Source of the DNA: Candidatus Brocadia sapporoensis
GTDB taxonomy: Bacteria; Planctomycetota; Brocadiia; Brocadiales; Brocadiaceae
Assembly: GCF_001753675.2 (NCBI RefSeq)
Contig: NZ_MJUW02000114.1
Span: 1-64,000 of the forward strand
DNA: 64,000 bases
Direction of reading: 5' to 3'
The notes beneath the pieces are model-generated. The model worked only from the letters and a program-made list of their open reading frames with translations. It was not told where the DNA came from and searched no databases. Positions 173 through 8,991 of this stretch are shown piece by piece; the first letter of the stretch is position 1, and each line of letters opens with the position of its first letter. The translations under genes and the position numbers were made by a program.

Positions 173-201
173 GTAGGGGCAGGTTTGAAACCCGCCCCTA
201 C
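173..201. repeat. Palindromic repeat upstream of the sigma-54 activator
   Basis: A near-perfect inverted repeat of the form GTAGGGGCaGGTTT / AAACCcGCCCCTAC with almost no loop. A decayed relative lies at 1771-1801, so the two bracket the regulator gene at 262-1710. Its ends resemble the GTAGGGGCG ends of the palindromes at 52-56.6 kb, so they may belong to one broad family. It has no T-run and is probably not a terminator. The rest of 1-261 shows no gene. Confidence 0.7.
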
Positions 202-2321: not shown

Positions 2322-2606
2322 ATGAAAAAGCATGAAAACTGTACAACGGGAAAGCCATACATTATGCAAGAGATATTAGCCTATCTGTCAGTACATCCCG
2401 ATGCCCAGGACACGCTGGAAGGTATAGCGGAATGGTGGCTTCTGGCGCAAAGAATCAGACACAAGACACGTGAGGTCAAAAAATCTATCGCAAAACTGGT
2501 AGCGCAAGATCTCATTCTGAAGCATGAAGGCAAAGACAGGCACACGTATTATCGAATAAATCGGAGCAAGTATAATGAGATAAAAACGATAAAACAAAAA
2601 TCATAA
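2322..2606 (+). CDS. Small winged-helix-like protein preceding the riboswitch
   Basis: A 94-residue protein of unknown function. A helical N-terminal half (EILAYLSVHPDAQDTLEGIA) is followed by a basic helix and a strand-like HTYYRINRSKY end. This is the size and pattern of a one-domain winged helix that reads DNA or a partner, but that fold is my inference. Its stop codon falls at the 5' edge of a GEMM-I riboswitch, so the riboswitch RNA either continues this transcript or starts from a promoter inside the gene. The whole gene-plus-riboswitch unit recurs in decayed form at 4937-5300, so this module has been duplicated. No canonical Shine-Dalgarno is close to the ATG; the usable GAGGA is about 21 bases away. 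Confidence 0.6.
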   Translation: MKKHENCTTGKPYIMQEILAYLSVHPDAQDTLEGIAEWWLLAQRIRHKTREVKKSIAKLVAQDLILKHEGKDRHTYYRINRSKYNEIKTIKQKS

Positions 2607-2690
2607 CGATAAGGGTAAACCCTGAGTGATCAGGGGACGCAAAGTAACAGGGTCTTTTGTAGGGGCGTAGTGCCTACGTCCTTTACGGAT
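2605..2690 (+). promoter_or_regulatory. Cyclic-di-GMP-I (GEMM-I) riboswitch aptamer
   Basis: The core at 2611-2654 matches the class I c-di-GMP aptamer. AAGGGTAAACC leads into stem CCTGA/TCAGG capped by the GNRA tetraloop GTGA, then GGGACGCAAAG and the start of the next stem (TAACAGGGTC). By alignment to the Vibrio Vc2 RNA, the position equivalent to G20 is G, and the stacking A47 lies in CGCAAAG. This points to c-di-GMP rather than cGAMP, where A is found at position 20. The terminator at 2705-2758 supplies an expression platform for the radical SAM gene at 2811. The 3' boundary is approximate because I cannot fold the P3/P1 region with certainty. Confidence 0.82.
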
Positions 2691-2704
2691 ATACGTTAGA
2701 AGAC

Positions 2705-2758
2705 AGCCTTACTGCCGAAGATGTTTGGAAGTGAATATCTTTGCAGTAAGGCTTTTTT
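2705..2758 (+). terminator. Intrinsic terminator, likely riboswitch expression platform
   Basis: AGCCTTACTGC (2705-2715) pairs perfectly with GCAGTAAGGCT (2743-2753). Beyond a bulged C the stem continues for about six more pairs. A run of six T follows. It sits between the GEMM-I aptamer and the maturase gene, so ligand binding probably decides whether transcription continues. The sign of control cannot be read from sequence alone. Confidence 0.85.
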
Positions 2759-2810
2759 GTTTCCCTTTGAATAACATGTAATCATTTACGAACAGACAAG
2801 GGAATTTACC

Positions 2811-3932
2811 ATGAAATATACACTATGCATCACACAGCAATGTAATATGCGATGCCAATATTGTTACATCGACAAAAAGGATACGGAGATGTCTTTATCC
2901 ATCGCAAAAAAGATTGTTGATTTCATCTTCAAAAATACTCCTTCCAAAGAAAAGATTGATATCGGTTTTTTCGGTGGTGAACCACTTCTTGAATTTGAGC
3001 TTATTAAAAAGATTACCGAGACGATAGAAAACCATCCATCGTTTAATAAGAAATTGGTAGAGCTTACCGTGGTAACCAATGGGACAATTTTTTCTGATGA
3101 AATAGCTGATTTTTTGAATGAACACCATATAGGGTTCTGTTTAAGTTGCGATGGCCCTCCATTTGTACAGGATACGTTTAGGTGCCTCCAGGATGGCAAA
3201 GGAAGTTCATCCATTGTTACGAACACAATAAGACGTGCGAAAGAAACTCTTCTCTCGGTACTTGTTAATGCGGTATATCACCCTCAGACCTTTCGATATT
3301 TACCTCACGTGGTAGAATATCTTGCTTCCCTTGGACTAAAGCGGATTTATTTAAATCCTGATTTTTCAGCGCCCTGGTCGAAAAAAGAGGCGGAATTACT
3401 TTCTGAGATTTATGGTCAGATTTCAAAACAGTATATTGACTTTTATCTTCAGAAAAAACCACATTTTATCAGTTTAATTGACAGCAAGATTGCCGTTATT
3501 TTGGGCGAAGGATACAAACCACTTGACCGCTGCAAAATGGGAACTGGAGAGTTTGCCTTCACACCTTCAGGAAATATTTATCCCTGTGAGAGACTTATCG
3601 GCACAGACACGGGAAATGGACACTGTATTGGTAATATCGCTAGCGGATTAAATAGAGAGCAAATGTCATGTAAGACAGCCCCTGGAATGGAAATAAATAC
3701 CGAATGCATATCTTGCAGCTTGAAGGATTACTGCATGAACTGGTGTGGCTGCTCCAATTACTTTTCATCTGGGTATTACAATAGGGTAAGCCCGTTCTTA
3801 TGCTTATCAGAAAAAACTGCGATTTTAACTGCATTTCATACCTTCCGAACCCTTGAAGAGAAACTTGGATCAGCCTTTTTTAACAATTTAACAGAAATAC
3901 ATACTGGTGCCAACTGTACGATCGGAGGATAG
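2811..3932 (+). CDS. Radical SAM/SPASM peptide maturase
   Basis: A 373-residue enzyme of the radical SAM family. The N-terminus carries the 4Fe-4S/SAM motif CNMRCQYCY (residues 11-19), and a GGEPL-type motif follows (FFGGEPLLE, about 61-69). The C-terminal SPASM region has many cysteines: CKMGTGEFAFTPSGNIYPC, then HCIGN, then CISCSLKDYCMNWCGC and a last LC. This is enough to bind one or two auxiliary clusters. Such proteins install thioether or carbon crosslinks in ribosomal peptides or mature sulfatases. No sulfatase gene is nearby, and a candidate 37-residue peptide follows directly, so peptide maturation is favoured. An AAGGGA Shine-Dalgarno precedes the ATG. Expression should be set by the upstream riboswitch and terminator. 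The exact subfamily is not determined. Confidence 0.88.
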   Translation: MKYTLCITQQCNMRCQYCYIDKKDTEMSLSIAKKIVDFIFKNTPSKEKIDIGFFGGEPLLEFELIKKITETIENHPSFNKKLVELTVVTNGTIFSDEIADFLNEHHIGFCLSCDGPPFVQDTFRCLQDGKGSSSIVTNTIRRAKETLLSVLVNAVYHPQTFRYLPHVVEYLASLGLKRIYLNPDFSAPWSKKEAELLSEIYGQISKQYIDFYLQKKPHFISLIDSKIAVILGEGYKPLDRCKMGTGEFAFTPSGNIYPCERLIGTDTGNGHCIGNIASGLNREQMSCKTAPGMEINTECISCSLKDYCMNWCGCSNYFSSGYYNRVSPFLCLSEKTAILTAFHTFRTLEEKLGSAFFNNLTEIHTGANCTIGG

Positions 3933-3993: not shown

Positions 3994-4107
3994 ATGAATC
4001 CGCTAAATAAAATAAATCATTTTCTATTAAAAGGAAACAGCATGAAGAATGGCCGCCCTCCTCCAACGATTGGGAAGTGTTATATCTCTTCATCTATAAA
4101 CAAATAA
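3994..4107 (+). CDS. Candidate precursor peptide for the radical SAM maturase
   Basis: A 37-residue frame beginning MNPLNKINHFLLKGN and ending GRPPPTIGKCYISSSINK, located 61 bases after the maturase stop. AAAGGG lies nine bases before the first ATG. A second in-frame ATG at 4042, with AAGGA six bases upstream, would give a 21-residue form. A short polar/hydrophobic leader and a tail with one Cys, prolines and several Ser would suit a modified peptide. The assignment rests on position and size; I see no match to a known precursor family, and chance cannot be excluded. Confidence 0.42.
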   Translation: MNPLNKINHFLLKGNSMKNGRPPPTIGKCYISSSINK

Positions 4108-4184: not shown

Positions 4185-4595
4185 ATGTATCTAATAAATC
4201 CTTTCTTAGTCGGCAACCCTGATTTAATAAGGCGATTTAAATGGGGGATACCAGCAGATTTTTGGCTTAAAAATATAGACTATACCGGCAAATTTATAAC
4301 GGAAAATCAAATCCGTCCCGTACCTATTGAGGCACTAGCGACAGAAAATCCACAGGGTATATTTGCAGCTAGAGAACAAGAAAAAGCCCTCCTACCTCAT
4401 TCTGAATGGTTTGGAGGAATTAAGATACCTCATTTGCATTTTAAAAGAGATATCTATCTTCTCAACGAAATTCAATGGAGAAGATTTTCAGAAAATATTA
4501 TTAATGATTTTAGGAAAAAGTTGGATAACGTAAAAACTGTGGGTTTTGAACAAGTTATGGAAATGTCAAATGCAATAGATAGTATTGTTGTCTAG
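4185..4595 (+). CDS. Unknown protein downstream of the maturase
   Basis: A soluble-looking protein of 136 residues with no signal peptide or membrane segment. The start chosen is the ATG at 4185, because GGAGGG lies seven bases before it; the in-frame ATG at 4170 overlaps that Shine-Dalgarno. Visible features are an N-terminal NPFLVGNP segment, RPVPIEALAT in the middle, a His-rich IKIPHLHFKRDIYLLNE stretch and a helical C-terminus. It follows the maturase and candidate peptide on the same strand, so it may be a partner, an immunity protein or a larger substrate. I do not recognise the family. Confidence 0.65.
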   Translation: MYLINPFLVGNPDLIRRFKWGIPADFWLKNIDYTGKFITENQIRPVPIEALATENPQGIFAAREQEKALLPHSEWFGGIKIPHLHFKRDIYLLNEIQWRRFSENIINDFRKKLDNVKTVGFEQVMEMSNAIDSIVV

Positions 4596-4936: not shown

Positions 4937-5245
4937 ATGAAAAAAATGGAAGCGTACAACGTGAAAAAGCCATACATTATATAGGAGATATTAGCCTGTC
5001 TATCTGAACATCCCGATGCCCAGGACACACTCGAGGGCATTGCGGAATGGTGGCTTCTGGCGCAAAAGATCAGACACAAGACACGTGAGGTCAAAAAATC
5101 TATCGCAGAACTGGTAGCGCAAGATCTCGTTCTGAAGCATGAAGGCAAAGACAGGCACACGTATTATCGAATAAATCGGAGTAAGCATGATGAGATAAAA
5201 GCAATGCAACAGAAAAACATAACGACAAAGGTAAACCCTGAGTGA
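4937..5245 (+). pseudogene. Decayed duplicate of the winged-helix-like gene
   Basis: The translation parallels the 2322-2606 protein almost throughout (for example HPDAQDTLEGIAEWW and KDRHTYYRINRSK). A TAG at 4982-4984 replaces the CAA codon of the intact copy. Near the 3' end a one-base difference removes the original stop, so the frame runs into the riboswitch and ends at 5243-5245. No good alternative start follows the TAG. The close similarity, including flanking RNA elements, shows a duplication of the whole module. Confidence 0.78.
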
Positions 5246-5300
5246 TCAGGGGACACAAAGTAACAGGGTCTTTTGTAGGAGCGTATGGCATAGATGTAAA
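5222..5300 (+). promoter_or_regulatory. Variant GEMM-I riboswitch copy, possibly impaired
   Basis: The core at 5227-5270 matches the first aptamer, with the same CCTGA-GTGA-TCAGG stem-loop, but ACGCAAAG has become ACACAAAG (G to A at 5255, Vc2 position 45 by alignment). The G equivalent to G20 is kept. Downstream, where copy one has a strong terminator, this copy has only a weak T- and A-rich hairpin around 5306-5355. AGGAGG near 5373 is followed by ATG-ACC-TAA, a useless two-codon frame. Ligand control of the gene at 5467 is therefore doubtful. Confidence 0.6.
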
Positions 5301-5466
5301 AAAGATAGCCTTTTTGCTAAAAATGTTCTAAAAGGAACTTGTGTAAATATTTTTGCAGTAAATCTTTTGTTTTAGGAGGTAAAGATATGACCTAAAGAGC
5401 ACATATTATACTCCCAAATGTCCGCATAATAAGTCCTCTGAAATATTATAGGGAGGGTTAAATTTT

Positions 5467-7053
5467 ATGAAATTTGAAAAATTAGTGTTGCAAAATCCAT
5501 GCTCGGCAGAAGAAGAGCTAAATAAGGCTGGAGTAAAGACCGTTGTTAGCGAATCGAATGATTTTTATGGTGCAAACAGTTTAGAAACATTTTCAAGCGC
5601 AAGCGGACTGACCTACACGCACGAAGATGCAGATGGATTTTTAGATTATCCAACATCGTTTGCAGGAAAATCTGCAAACTACTGGCGTAAGGATGCAGGA
5701 GTGAAAGTGTGGGCTTACGAAGAAACGTACGATAATTGGCAGGACACATACGGTATGGATGCAGTGATGGTATTTTATCATTCCGGCCATGGCAACATGG
5801 ATAACAACGGCGTATTTCAAGCACCACTGGGCGGTAAATGGGATAACCGCGATTGGGCATTCTCGAATAACATGGCGTTCGCAAACGAAGAGTTGCGCTA
5901 TCTCTTCTGGTCAACATGTTTTTCGCTGCGAGTATCCGGCCCGGATAATCCGGTGCGAACATGGTGGAATCCGAACAAAGGCGGACTCAGAATGATGTTC
6001 GGCTATGAAACCACCAGCGTTGACGATCCGAACTACGGCAAGTTTTTTTGGGATGAATGGAAGAAAGGGAAAACATTTGCCCGTGCATTTTTGGATGCGA
6101 GCTGGAGAATCAGCCATAATCAGGTTCCTGTGGTAATGGCAGCAGGAGCGAATGCAAGTGATGCAATCAATCGATTGAATAACGAGCGATTCTTTTCGCG
6201 AACGCCCGTTACCAAGGGTTGGTATCAGTGGCAATGGATTGGAACTCTACCGACGCGTTCGTTTGCGAGCGAAAGAAGTGTTCCAAAGCAACTCAGCGGC
6301 ATTATACTGAACAACAAGTTTGCAAACGACGAGTTCATTGCAAAAATTGCAAGCAAGGTTGGTGTTACACAAAAAGATGCCGCAATCCTTCTTGATCCAA
6401 ACGGCAATCGTATGTTGTCAACGAAAGAAGTTCATACGAATGTAAACAACCAAGGCGCATTGAATTTGTATTTCGGCAAAACTAATATACAGAATGCCTC
6501 TCTCCTCGATGAGAACAAAGCAATCAAGATCGCTCAAAATATCATTAGCGATCTCGGTTTGAACGAAGGAATCAAATTAACGTTAGGAAATATCCGGCAT
6601 TGTTTTACTTCCGGTGGAACATTGAAGGGAAGTGGCACGATAGAAAAGCCATATGCGGTTGAAACAATTGTTCAGTTCCGCCAGAGTCATGAAGGAGTTA
6701 AAAGTATCAATTCAGACCACGGGCTTATAGCAGTTAGCATTGATAATGATGGACGCATTGTCAACCTTTACGATTCTACGAAATTGGTGCTAGGAGAAGT
6801 TGACAAGCGTGCACTGAATGCATCATCACCGCCTGATCCGAAAGGTTCCTCTGGTACAAATACTGAAGCACAGTTCAAGAAGAAGATTGATAGAATCCTT
6901 GCTGACAGCGAAAGTAAATCTTCCGTACTTCATGAAACGGTTGGCTACGATTTTTCCGGAAATCTTGGTACCCTTGTTCATCAGAAGGAAATTGAAGTGG
7001 ACTTCGGACAGAATCTGAAGAAGCGTTACAAAGTAAGAGTGCCATTGGAGTGA
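5467..7053 (+). CDS. Caspase-like (DUF6345-type) protein
   Basis: A 528-residue protein without a recognisable signal peptide. Residues about 95-230 have the clan CD cysteine peptidase signature: a hydrophobic strand, then FYHSGHGN with the putative catalytic His (about 106-110), and a second strand leading to LFWSTCFSLR with the putative catalytic Cys (about 148). GLRMMFGYETT follows. I associate this arrangement with the DUF6345 family. The C-terminal 250 residues contain extracellular-looking repeats without a recognised domain. GGGAGGG lies nine bases before the ATG. Within this locus it could cleave a leader peptide or act as an effector; both are inference. It follows the variant riboswitch. 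Confidence 0.72.
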   Translation: MKFEKLVLQNPCSAEEELNKAGVKTVVSESNDFYGANSLETFSSASGLTYTHEDADGFLDYPTSFAGKSANYWRKDAGVKVWAYEETYDNWQDTYGMDAVMVFYHSGHGNMDNNGVFQAPLGGKWDNRDWAFSNNMAFANEELRYLFWSTCFSLRVSGPDNPVRTWWNPNKGGLRMMFGYETTSVDDPNYGKFFWDEWKKGKTFARAFLDASWRISHNQVPVVMAAGANASDAINRLNNERFFSRTPVTKGWYQWQWIGTLPTRSFASERSVPKQLSGIILNNKFANDEFIAKIASKVGVTQKDAAILLDPNGNRMLSTKEVHTNVNNQGALNLYFGKTNIQNASLLDENKAIKIAQNIISDLGLNEGIKLTLGNIRHCFTSGGTLKGSGTIEKPYAVETIVQFRQSHEGVKSINSDHGLIAVSIDNDGRIVNLYDSTKLVLGEVDKRALNASSPPDPKGSSGTNTEAQFKKKIDRILADSESKSSVLHETVGYDFSGNLGTLVHQKEIEVDFGQNLKKRYKVRVPLE

Positions 7054-7478: not shown

Positions 7479-7509
7479 TTTTAAACCAAAAAAAGAGGAG
7501 ATGATGCTT

Positions 7510-7836
7510 ATGGAAACACGAAGGGGTTCGATTGAGGCGATTAAAGAAATAGTCAGGCTTGGCAATAGAATTAGTGTCGATGAAATGGCAAAGATTTCCG
7601 ACATGGCTTTAGCCCTAGATGGTTCAATTACCTCGGTAGATCCTGATGGAGACTGGTGTGGCACAGGGCGTATTCGTTTTAAGTGGCCTCCCAAGAAGAA
7701 CGAAGAGTTCATAAAACTGCTCGATCATTTAGTAAGAAGCAGGATCAACCACGAGGTACTGATTAACGGTATCCCGGTACCAGATCACATAATAATTAAT
7801 GTTTCTCGTCAAATCGGCCAGAGATTAGGCCGGTAG
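7510..7836 (+). CDS. Unknown small protein upstream of the second radical SAM gene
   Basis: A protein of about 108 residues, with no signal peptide or membrane span. The ATG at 7510 is preferred because GAGGAG (7495-7500) lies nine bases upstream; the ATGs at 7501 and 7504 are too close to it. Helical RISVDEMAKISDMALALDG is followed by a strand-rich centre with DPDGDWCGTGRIRFKWP and a basic C-terminus. It precedes the radical SAM gene by 99 bases on the same strand and could be its substrate or partner. No family recognised. Confidence 0.6.
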   Translation: METRRGSIEAIKEIVRLGNRISVDEMAKISDMALALDGSITSVDPDGDWCGTGRIRFKWPPKKNEEFIKLLDHLVRSRINHEVLINGIPVPDHIIINVSRQIGQRLGR

Positions 7837-7935
7837 GCCTTGTCATGATCCTATGGACAACTATATCCTTTCCAAGTATATGGTTGTAAGTGGCTGTGAT
7901 TCTGTGAGGTATCCTCAAATTGAACAGGAGGTATA

Positions 7936-8991
7936 ATGAACACGAGCAATAGGACAGTGCCGGCCAGTTATGATTTATTGTCGCCTTTCCTTCTTGCGCC
8001 AGGTGGAACACGAATTATACAGATACAGCCTACACTTCGTTGCAATCTGCGCTGCGTACATTGCTATTCAGAGAGTGGTCCCGACCGGACTGAAGAACTA
8101 TCTCTCGAAAGCTTGAAAAATTTCCTTGCGGATGCAGGCAGTCTTGGATATCGGTATGTTGGTGTTTCCGGGGGAGAGCCACTCTTATGGGAAGGACTAG
8201 AAGGTTTTCTTGATTTTGCGATGGAAAAGGGATTCTCCACTTCCATTACAACAAATGGTACTCTTCTTACTGCAAAGAAAGCCGTTAGACTTCACAAGAG
8301 AGTAGGCATTGTCGCTGTGAGTGTAGATGGGCCGCCTGAGGATCATGCGGAGATACGCAGATCAACAACTGCTTTTATTTCCATGAAGCACGGGCTTTCA
8401 GCGCTGCGTGATGCAGGTGTTCCTTTTACACTTGCCTTTACTCTGACCCGGTACAATGCTGATCGACTACGTTGGCTCTATGAGTTTGCTAATGAAGAAG
8501 GTGCAGTAGGAATACACGTCCATCCTTTGTCAGGCATTGGGAGTGCTGGTATTTTTCTCTCTGCCGCAATTCCTGATAATGTAGAATTTAAGGTCGCATC
8601 GTGGCTTCTCGCACTATTAGTATGTAATAACGGGTCCGGTGTGCCCGTTATTACGTTTGACGCAATTCCGCGTGCTGTTGTAGAGCAGAGTTGCTGGCCA
8701 ATGCTCGTGGAAGATGTTGAACGGCTCCGCTCTGCACCATTCGCCGACCTTGTTCCTTCCCTTACAGTCGAGCCGGATGGCTGCATCGTTCCATTCACTT
8801 ATGGTTTTCGTCGTAAGTGGTCTCTTGGATTCATCGGACAAAAACCCTTAGATCGGATGGTAGAAGCATGGCGTGCAACATGCGCGGCTCCTGTCGCCAC
8901 AATCCTACGTTCTACTCTTGAACGGCTTGCAGCAGCAGATATCGAGTATTGTGATCTGTTCTGGGAGATGTTGGTATCGGCCAATGGCTAG
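7936..8991 (+). CDS. Second radical SAM enzyme
   Basis: A 351-residue radical SAM protein. CNLRCVHCY (about 36-44) binds the catalytic cluster and VSGGEPLLW (about 77-85) is the SAM-binding GGE motif. TTNGTLL and VSVDGPPEDH follow, as in the MoaA/PqqE/SPASM branch. The C-terminal part has the VEPDGCIVPFTYGF outline of a SPASM domain but too few cysteines for the usual auxiliary clusters, so these may be lost or replaced. AGGAGG lies just before the ATG. Base composition looks richer in G+C than the neighbouring genes, which hints at a separate origin. The substrate is unknown; the nearest small genes are at 7419 and 7510. Confidence 0.85.
   Translation: MNTSNRTVPASYDLLSPFLLAPGGTRIIQIQPTLRCNLRCVHCYSESGPDRTEELSLESLKNFLADAGSLGYRYVGVSGGEPLLWEGLEGFLDFAMEKGFSTSITTNGTLLTAKKAVRLHKRVGIVAVSVDGPPEDHAEIRRSTTAFISMKHGLSALRDAGVPFTLAFTLTRYNADRLRWLYEFANEEGAVGIHVHPLSGIGSAGIFLSAAIPDNVEFKVASWLLALLVCNNGSGVPVITFDAIPRAVVEQSCWPMLVEDVERLRSAPFADLVPSLTVEPDGCIVPFTYGFRRKWSLGFIGQKPLDRMVEAWRATCAAPVATILRSTLERLAAADIEYCDLFWEMLVSANG

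Follow-up and report, generated by a model that had tools for sequence, protein, structure and literature searches.

Does a second messenger govern the making of a modified peptide in Candidatus Brocadia sapporoensis? The question is raised by a leader in a 64,000-nucleotide stretch of its genome (the window), where the first-pass annotation had proposed a c-di-GMP-I (GEMM-I) riboswitch and a terminator ahead of a radical SAM/SPASM maturase. GEMM-I RNAs usually control motility, pilus, cytochrome, surface and signalling genes. Among c-di-GMP riboswitch targets, the available part of PMC7266159 names motility and biofilm. We searched the whole window against Rfam with cmscan and obtained two matches only, both to RF01051, on the + strand and full length. 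The match ahead of the enzyme covers model positions 1-87, is significant by an E-value calculated for the 64-kb window, and lies above the family's gathering score of 35 bits (Table 1), so that the Infernal run suggested earlier as a check confirmed the proposed class. All of the sequence motifs named in that annotation were found as well: within the aptamer, AAGGGTAAACC at 2611-2621, the GTGA-capped stem CCCTGA-GTGA-TCAGGG at 2620-2635 and GGGACGCAAAG at 2634-2644, and beyond it the T6 run and the maturase ATG at 2811.

The putative ligand-contacting bases agree with this class. G2615, A2642 and C2715, which we take to be the equivalents of Vc2 G20, A47 and C92, are all of the c-di-GMP type, and consensus C21 is replaced by U in the window copy, giving a G-U wobble. 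When the aptamer RNA is folded alone, the minimum-free-energy structure lacks the complete model structure; tertiary contacts lie outside the energy model. The c-di-GMP-I-GGC variant (RF03167) was rejected for the window, as its consensus has CGAAG between P2 and P3 where the window reads CAAAG, and the best family is RF01051. For the G005, G007 and G010 copies RF03167 outscores RF01051, and the copy inspected still has CAAAG. GGDEF domains are matched 15 times in the genome (once only in part), and c-di-GMP can therefore probably be made.

Table 1 Features of the locus, with positions in the window
Feature	Position	Strand	Basis or remark
94-aa ORF, no Pfam or NCBIfam family	2322..2606	+	Stop codon is the first three aptamer bases
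c-di-GMP-I riboswitch aptamer (RF01051)	2604..2719	+	cmscan, 54.5 bits, E 6.9e-8
P3 helix, 5' strand	2643..2654	+	AGTA 2643-2646, AGGGTC 2649-2654; RF01051 alignment
P3 helix, 3' strand	2702..2713	+	GAC 2702-2704, CCTTACT 2707-2713; alignment and folding
Intrinsic terminator (predicted)	2706..2758	+	GCCTTACTGC 2706-2715 pairs with GCAGTAAGGC 2743-2752, then T6 2753-2758; folding and copy comparison
Radical SAM/SPASM enzyme, 373 aa, ATG 2811	2811..3932	+	Domain and family matches, alignment
Short ORF, 37 aa from this ATG, candidate precursor	3994..4107	+	Four Brocadia genomes
136-aa Cys-free partner, no known family	4185..4595	+	Motif GGIKxAHxH...DxYLLNxxQWxxFS
Degenerate second copy of the 94-aa ORF	4937..5219	+	Sequence comparison
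Second c-di-GMP-I match	5220..5321	+	cmscan, 50.5 bits, E 6.3e-7; absent from the first-pass annotation
DUF6345 protein of no assigned function (528 aa), following the decayed copy	5467..7053	+	PF19872, E 7.3e-14

A 17-bp terminator with T6 had been placed behind the aptamer. The terminator and its T6 are present; the stem is longer, with 22 predicted core pairs (11 + 11), one unpaired base and a folding energy of -29.1 to -29.7 kcal/mol, and outer pairs with the U run extend it further. Instead of following the aptamer, it overlaps it: the terminator 5' arm (2706-2715) consists of the P3 3' strand plus the putative ligand-pairing C2715. For the whole leader, the terminator form has a folding energy of -60.9 kcal/mol, compared with -40.1 kcal/mol for the best fold when the 3' arm is barred. 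A pattern-based scan of 1900-2900, which seeks uninterrupted stems, found no terminator, and the assignment is therefore based on predicted folding and on comparing the riboswitch copies. Because the two structures share this strand, aptamer and terminator would be mutually exclusive, and an ON switch is predicted. The competition is a mechanical point that the first-pass annotation did not contain.

At low c-di-GMP, the nascent leader would pair 2706-2715 with 2743-2752 and RNA polymerase would stop at the T6 run. At high c-di-GMP, the aptamer would keep the 2706-2715 strand in P3, with C2715 paired to the ligand, and the blocked terminator would allow the enzyme, the short ORF and the 136-aa partner to be transcribed as a putative operon. 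On the + strand just upstream of the window aptamer no sigma-70-like promoter was found; TTGACR occurs within 80 bases upstream in 13 of the 20 riboswitch copies of this genome. A comparable arrangement is offered by the cGAMP-sensing pilM riboswitch of Geobacter metallireducens, an experimentally studied ON switch whose terminator sequesters the ligand-pairing C (PMC9262584, available part). Like the window leader as predicted, it is an ON switch whose terminator uses the aptamer 3' strand, whereas the base at the discriminating place, and with it the ligand type, and the controlled genes differ. With other RF01051 RNAs the window leader shares the contact bases and the form of a gene-control leader with a terminator; what sets it apart is its target, a radical SAM/SPASM enzyme accompanied by a partner of no known family. 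The RNA is thus an ordinary member of its class, and the target is unusual. The leader is genuinely a c-di-GMP-I switch, predicted to be of the ON type and probably functional.

Next, we determined how widely this architecture is shared. The genome (2.93 Mb, 123 contigs, 99.1% complete) has 20 RF01051 matches at E <= 0.001, 18 of them above the gathering score, and none was found in 14 control genomes. In a less sensitive survey of 11 Candidatus Brocadia genomes (this one and G001-G010) the number ranges from 19 to 56 per genome; c-di-GMP-I riboswitches are greatly expanded in Brocadia. We compared the 20 copies of the window genome with 55 of the 56 of the near-complete relative G005, leaving out its contig C2 copy, and 70 of these 75 were parsed (20 and 50, respectively). 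An overlapping terminator, scored where the terminator arm/P3 3' strand pairing held at at least 8 of 10 positions with a T-rich tail, was present in 64 of the 70 parsed copies (14/20 in the window genome, 50/50 in G005), and P3 retains 6 or 7 of its 7 tested pairs in 68/70. Most copies are nearly identical, so the covariation is thin. In the C65 and C86 copies of the window genome, the P3 5' strand, the P3 3' strand and the terminator arm have all changed together, with one mismatch remaining per helix in C86. The exceptions all belong to the window genome: the C113 copy has another platform, C116 has lost its terminator, C67 and the window's second copy have degenerated, and the copies C40 and C120a are cut off by a contig edge. 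The P3 extension (window 2655-2701) contains a GTAGGGGCGTA... palindrome, and a similar insert was seen by eye in 9 of the 20 copies; a GTAGGGGC palindrome also occurs at window 173-201.

Upstream and downstream of the operon, the window holds two copies of one repeat. The 94-aa ORF that runs into the aptamer resembles, by eye only, a small helix-turn-helix protein, and a 76% identical copy lies at the equivalent place in G007. Together with the start of the riboswitch it forms a repeat of 351 bases, 89% identical between the two window copies. The terminator of the second copy no longer pairs (-10.1 kcal/mol), so that this copy is probably not a working switch. Further along, at 7501-8991, lie a 111-aa ORF of no family and then a second radical SAM enzyme of no clear subfamily (best model NirJ2, 102 of 500 bits). 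A sigma-54 activator is encoded at 262-1710; in G007 its homologue (74%) occupies the corresponding flank of the enzyme locus and is preceded by a c-di-GMP-I switch of its own. In Brocadia MAG_8, a group II intron domain (RF02003, 84.6 bits) is found upstream of the enzyme locus (L080:5081-5224).

We next considered the gene that the leader would control. SPASM enzymes carry the cysteine set CX9-15GX4C...CX2CX5CX3C...C. In the window protein, the CxxxCxxC cysteines C11, C15 and C18 and the seven SPASM cysteines (C241, G254, C259; C299, C302, C308, C312; C331) are invariant in 8/8 aligned relatives, and by its sequence it is a complete radical SAM/SPASM enzyme. That such an enzyme is the first gene behind the switch had been proposed earlier and is borne out, the arrangement being kept in two other Brocadia genomes. 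Enzyme identity to the window protein is 84-86% among Brocadia carriers, 59% in Mastigocoleus, 58% in a Saprospiraceae MAG, 52% in a gammaproteobacterium and 40% in bacterium Dive96; dN/dS across the Brocadia carriers is 0.14-0.18.

Among the best 25 of the 77 NCBIfam families matched by the enzyme, none reached its curated cut-off. The best of the curated families listed was the PapB family NF047865, and membership was rejected, the score being 201.4 bits for a cut-off of 340 (relatives L081, L083 and L084: 197, 189 and 216 bits). The closest solved relative by profile is PDB 5wgg, 'Radical SAM domain protein' (E 6.4e-49), which we take to be the thioether-forming SPASM enzyme CteB; as the match starts at residue 100 of that chain, the window enzyme is without the N-terminal part or extension. 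Ranthipeptide precursors typically carry Cys-rich repeats. The window enzyme is like the ranthipeptide maturase PapB in its radical SAM core and SPASM cysteines, and its system differs from that of PapB in that the neighbouring candidate substrates lack Cys-rich repeats. PapB forms Cys/Asp or Cys/Glu thioethers, according to the available part of PMC9413430.

The partner, whose start was chosen at the ATG behind GGAGGG, follows the enzyme and the short ORF in Brocadia and is the gene next to the enzyme in L081, L083 and L084. Of 59 genomes searched, the window genome included, four have the enzyme and the same four have the partner; partner dN/dS across Brocadia carriers is 0.09-0.38. The partner profile (A3) was built with L081, L083 and L084, which makes genome-search matches in these loci circular, and for support we used a leave-one-out repeat. 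In this, the ORF behind the enzyme was the locus-best partner match in L081 (E 9.1e-30), L083 (E 1.2e-28) and L084 (E 1e-4), and a match was also obtained in L082 (E 2.5e-4), the Saprospiraceae locus in which the contig ends about 60 codons into the partner-like ORF. With the window partner as a tblastn query, L082 and L084 gave nothing at E <= 1, and the genome-wide profile search of the L082 genome found no partner. By these sequence comparisons, the enzyme-partner pair clearly recurs in one cyanobacterium and one gammaproteobacterium, with weak support for its recurrence in two further MAGs. A wider partner search gave 3 of 392 genomes of the phylum and 1 of 388 of the Mastigocoleus class, all of them carriers found before, so the pair is rare.

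No family could be assigned to the partner: Pfam gave nothing convincing (best E 0.13, one member), NCBIfam likewise gave none, and PDB sequences gave no match (best E 0.38). An AlphaFold model from five sequences was poor (pLDDT 65.4, pTM 0.59), Foldseek with this model returned no match at E <= 0.001, and a second structural comparison reached Z 5.3 at most, across only 41 residues. Cysteine is absent from 6 of 7 partners, the L084 protein having two. PapB-type thioether chemistry within the partner alone is thereby excluded. A ranthipeptide thioether precursor was rejected on the same ground, conserved Cys donors being absent from 6/7 partners and from the short-ORF core.

A precursor peptide is classically encoded right behind its enzyme, and in Brocadia this position is held by the short ORF. 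Its core, NHFLxxGNSMKxGRPPP (4015-4065), is kept in 4/4 Brocadia loci with mostly synonymous changes (dN/dS 0.03-0.21 over 17 codons chosen after the alignment was seen); the core contains no Cys, and the variable tail of the window ORF contains one. In G005 and G007 the ATG lies just behind the enzyme stop. By eye, the window has ATT in place of this ATG and the G010 reading frame is interrupted by a one-base gap, so that both ORFs would start further on. As a general feature of the module the MKxGRPPP peptide was rejected: in L081 and L083 no short ORF was seen by eye between enzyme and partner, and the 12-codon MKASRSPPLQKY in that place in L082 is possibly due to chance. Once made, the enzyme would most likely modify a ribosomally made peptide or protein. 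Its substrate could be the partner, which recurs beside it in different phyla; alternatively, the short peptide could be modified in Brocadia, and the partner would then serve as a recognition protein.

The predicted c-di-GMP control is a Brocadia addition outside the core module, since no Rfam riboswitch reached the gathering score in the four non-Brocadia loci (L081-L084). The leader is intact in three of the four Brocadia carriers (G000, G005 and G007). The G010 aptamer has lost its 5' part, including the P2 hairpin, and the terminator there has two mismatches, with a terminator energy of -19.3 compared with -25.3 to -32.5 kcal/mol for the intact leaders. That the aptamer was lost and the terminator weakened together would be expected of a working ON switch, if a terminator left without its aptamer were harmful.

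The G010 loss can also be read the other way, as a sign that the leader was carried about the genome within a repeat and has ceased to control the operon. The decay of the near-identical neighbour copy at 5220 would fit this, as would the ends of contigs C40 and C120, which lie 12 bases behind the aptamer, as is typical of repeats in assemblies. We consider such a relic improbable, since aptamer and strong terminator alike are preserved in the orthologous leaders of G005 and G007 despite an enzyme dS of 0.44-0.56 (G000/G005/G007). That a working leader answers to 3',3'-cGAMP and not to c-di-GMP seems to us very improbable indeed. The fold is common to both RNAs and cGAMP variants differ at one contact base; cGAMP with G20A GEMM-I is a named structure in the available part of PMC6274999, and one G005 copy (G005:C1:1091520-1091639) has this cGAMP-sensor base, A at the G20 place, among copies of the c-di-GMP type. 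A cGAMP-sensing (GEMM-Ib) identity was nevertheless rejected for the window, because it needs that A and the window has G2615. In an automatic reading, G plus A stand at the two contact places in 19/20 copies of the window genome and in 48/55 of G005. Five copies were unparsed at one contact place (C67 of the window genome, at the first place, and four of G005), one G005 copy was read as C at the first place, a reading that by eye is displaced by an additional A, and another has T at the second.

A different doubt concerns the enzyme. The switch may respond to c-di-GMP as predicted while the enzyme, instead of being a RiPP maturase, modifies the folded partner or an exported peptidase. Sulfatase maturases and quinohemoprotein maturation enzymes are models for such a role. 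The quinohemoprotein amine dehydrogenase maturation model is the second-best NCBIfam match (151 bits), the partner is large, at 136 aa, and Cys-free, the window encodes the DUF6345 protein, and peptidase genes cluster around the enzyme-partner pair, with S8 and M4 in G010 and M4, C1 and M43 in G005 (L072:8708-13288 and L074:8143-13049). We nonetheless judge this role somewhat unlikely. The PapB model scores higher, at 201 bits, the short peptide core behind the enzyme is under purifying selection in all four Brocadia loci, and neither the 102-aa ORF beside the partner in G010 nor the large L081 ORFs matched a peptidase family. The reading we favour, and regard as likely, is a transcriptional c-di-GMP ON riboswitch over enzyme, short ORF and partner, with the enzyme modifying a peptide or protein.

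To place this target among others, we examined the first genes behind the 55 G005 switches. Radical_SAM (E <= 1e-4) was found in 1/55 of these first genes, the orthologue of the window enzyme. Among the best 25 of 88 families, the commonest first-gene domains are lectin-like, Ig-like and other exported-protein domains, and two sigma-54 activators occur; for each family this tally names the gene of its first member only. Elsewhere, a G005 switch lies directly before a PqqD protein (PF05402, 1.5e-11; L104:601-1063, G005:792404). On contig C24 of G010 (L075:1-4172), a c-di-GMP-I switch is followed by an Ig-like gene and then by another PapB-like enzyme, which scores 289 bits (under the cut-off) and has an N-terminal extension of about 100 aa, and the next ORF has, by eye, a twin-arginine-like start and Cys-rich tandem repeats. 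With RiPP-like genes near other switches, the general idea of the first-pass annotation extends past one locus. In G010 a switch also stands just before the M4 gene, and on contig C43 of the window genome (L025:9798-13272) one precedes contractile injection genes, Pvc16_N (PF14065, 1.1e-33) and then a tail-sheath protein.

That annotation had also remarked that a tie between second-messenger level and such enzymes had not been described, and this is consistent with the open-licence literature. There we found no c-di-GMP riboswitch tied to a radical SAM enzyme or RiPP; searches for c-di-GMP with ranthipeptide, or riboswitch with biosynthetic gene cluster, gave nothing relevant by title. In the parts of open-licence papers covered, the overlap of GEMM-I and radical SAM consisted only of a spermidine riboswitch and a Geobacter regulator, and by title and abstract start none dealt with c-di-GMP riboswitches in anammox bacteria or Brocadia. 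The novelty of the switch-enzyme link is provisional, as subscription papers lie outside this coverage.

In conclusion, a link from the second messenger to a modified peptide is plausible from the DNA. The anammox group is found in granules and is without a pure culture, according to the available part of PMC11224092. We offer, tentatively, the possibility that Brocadia places RiPP-like pathways under c-di-GMP ON switches and that the window operon represents a new class of Cys-free peptides or proteins modified by a radical SAM enzyme, made only at high c-di-GMP, probably in the granule or biofilm. If true, c-di-GMP, the signal of attached life, would be connected directly, at the RNA level, to modified-peptide production. 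An uncharacterised enzyme-partner pair common to several phyla is brought to attention, and a simple in vitro test becomes possible for an uncultured organism. About 20 such RNAs, the window switch among them, occur in this genome, and with up to 56 switches per genome, Brocadia would be a rich source for reading a c-di-GMP regulon from sequence.
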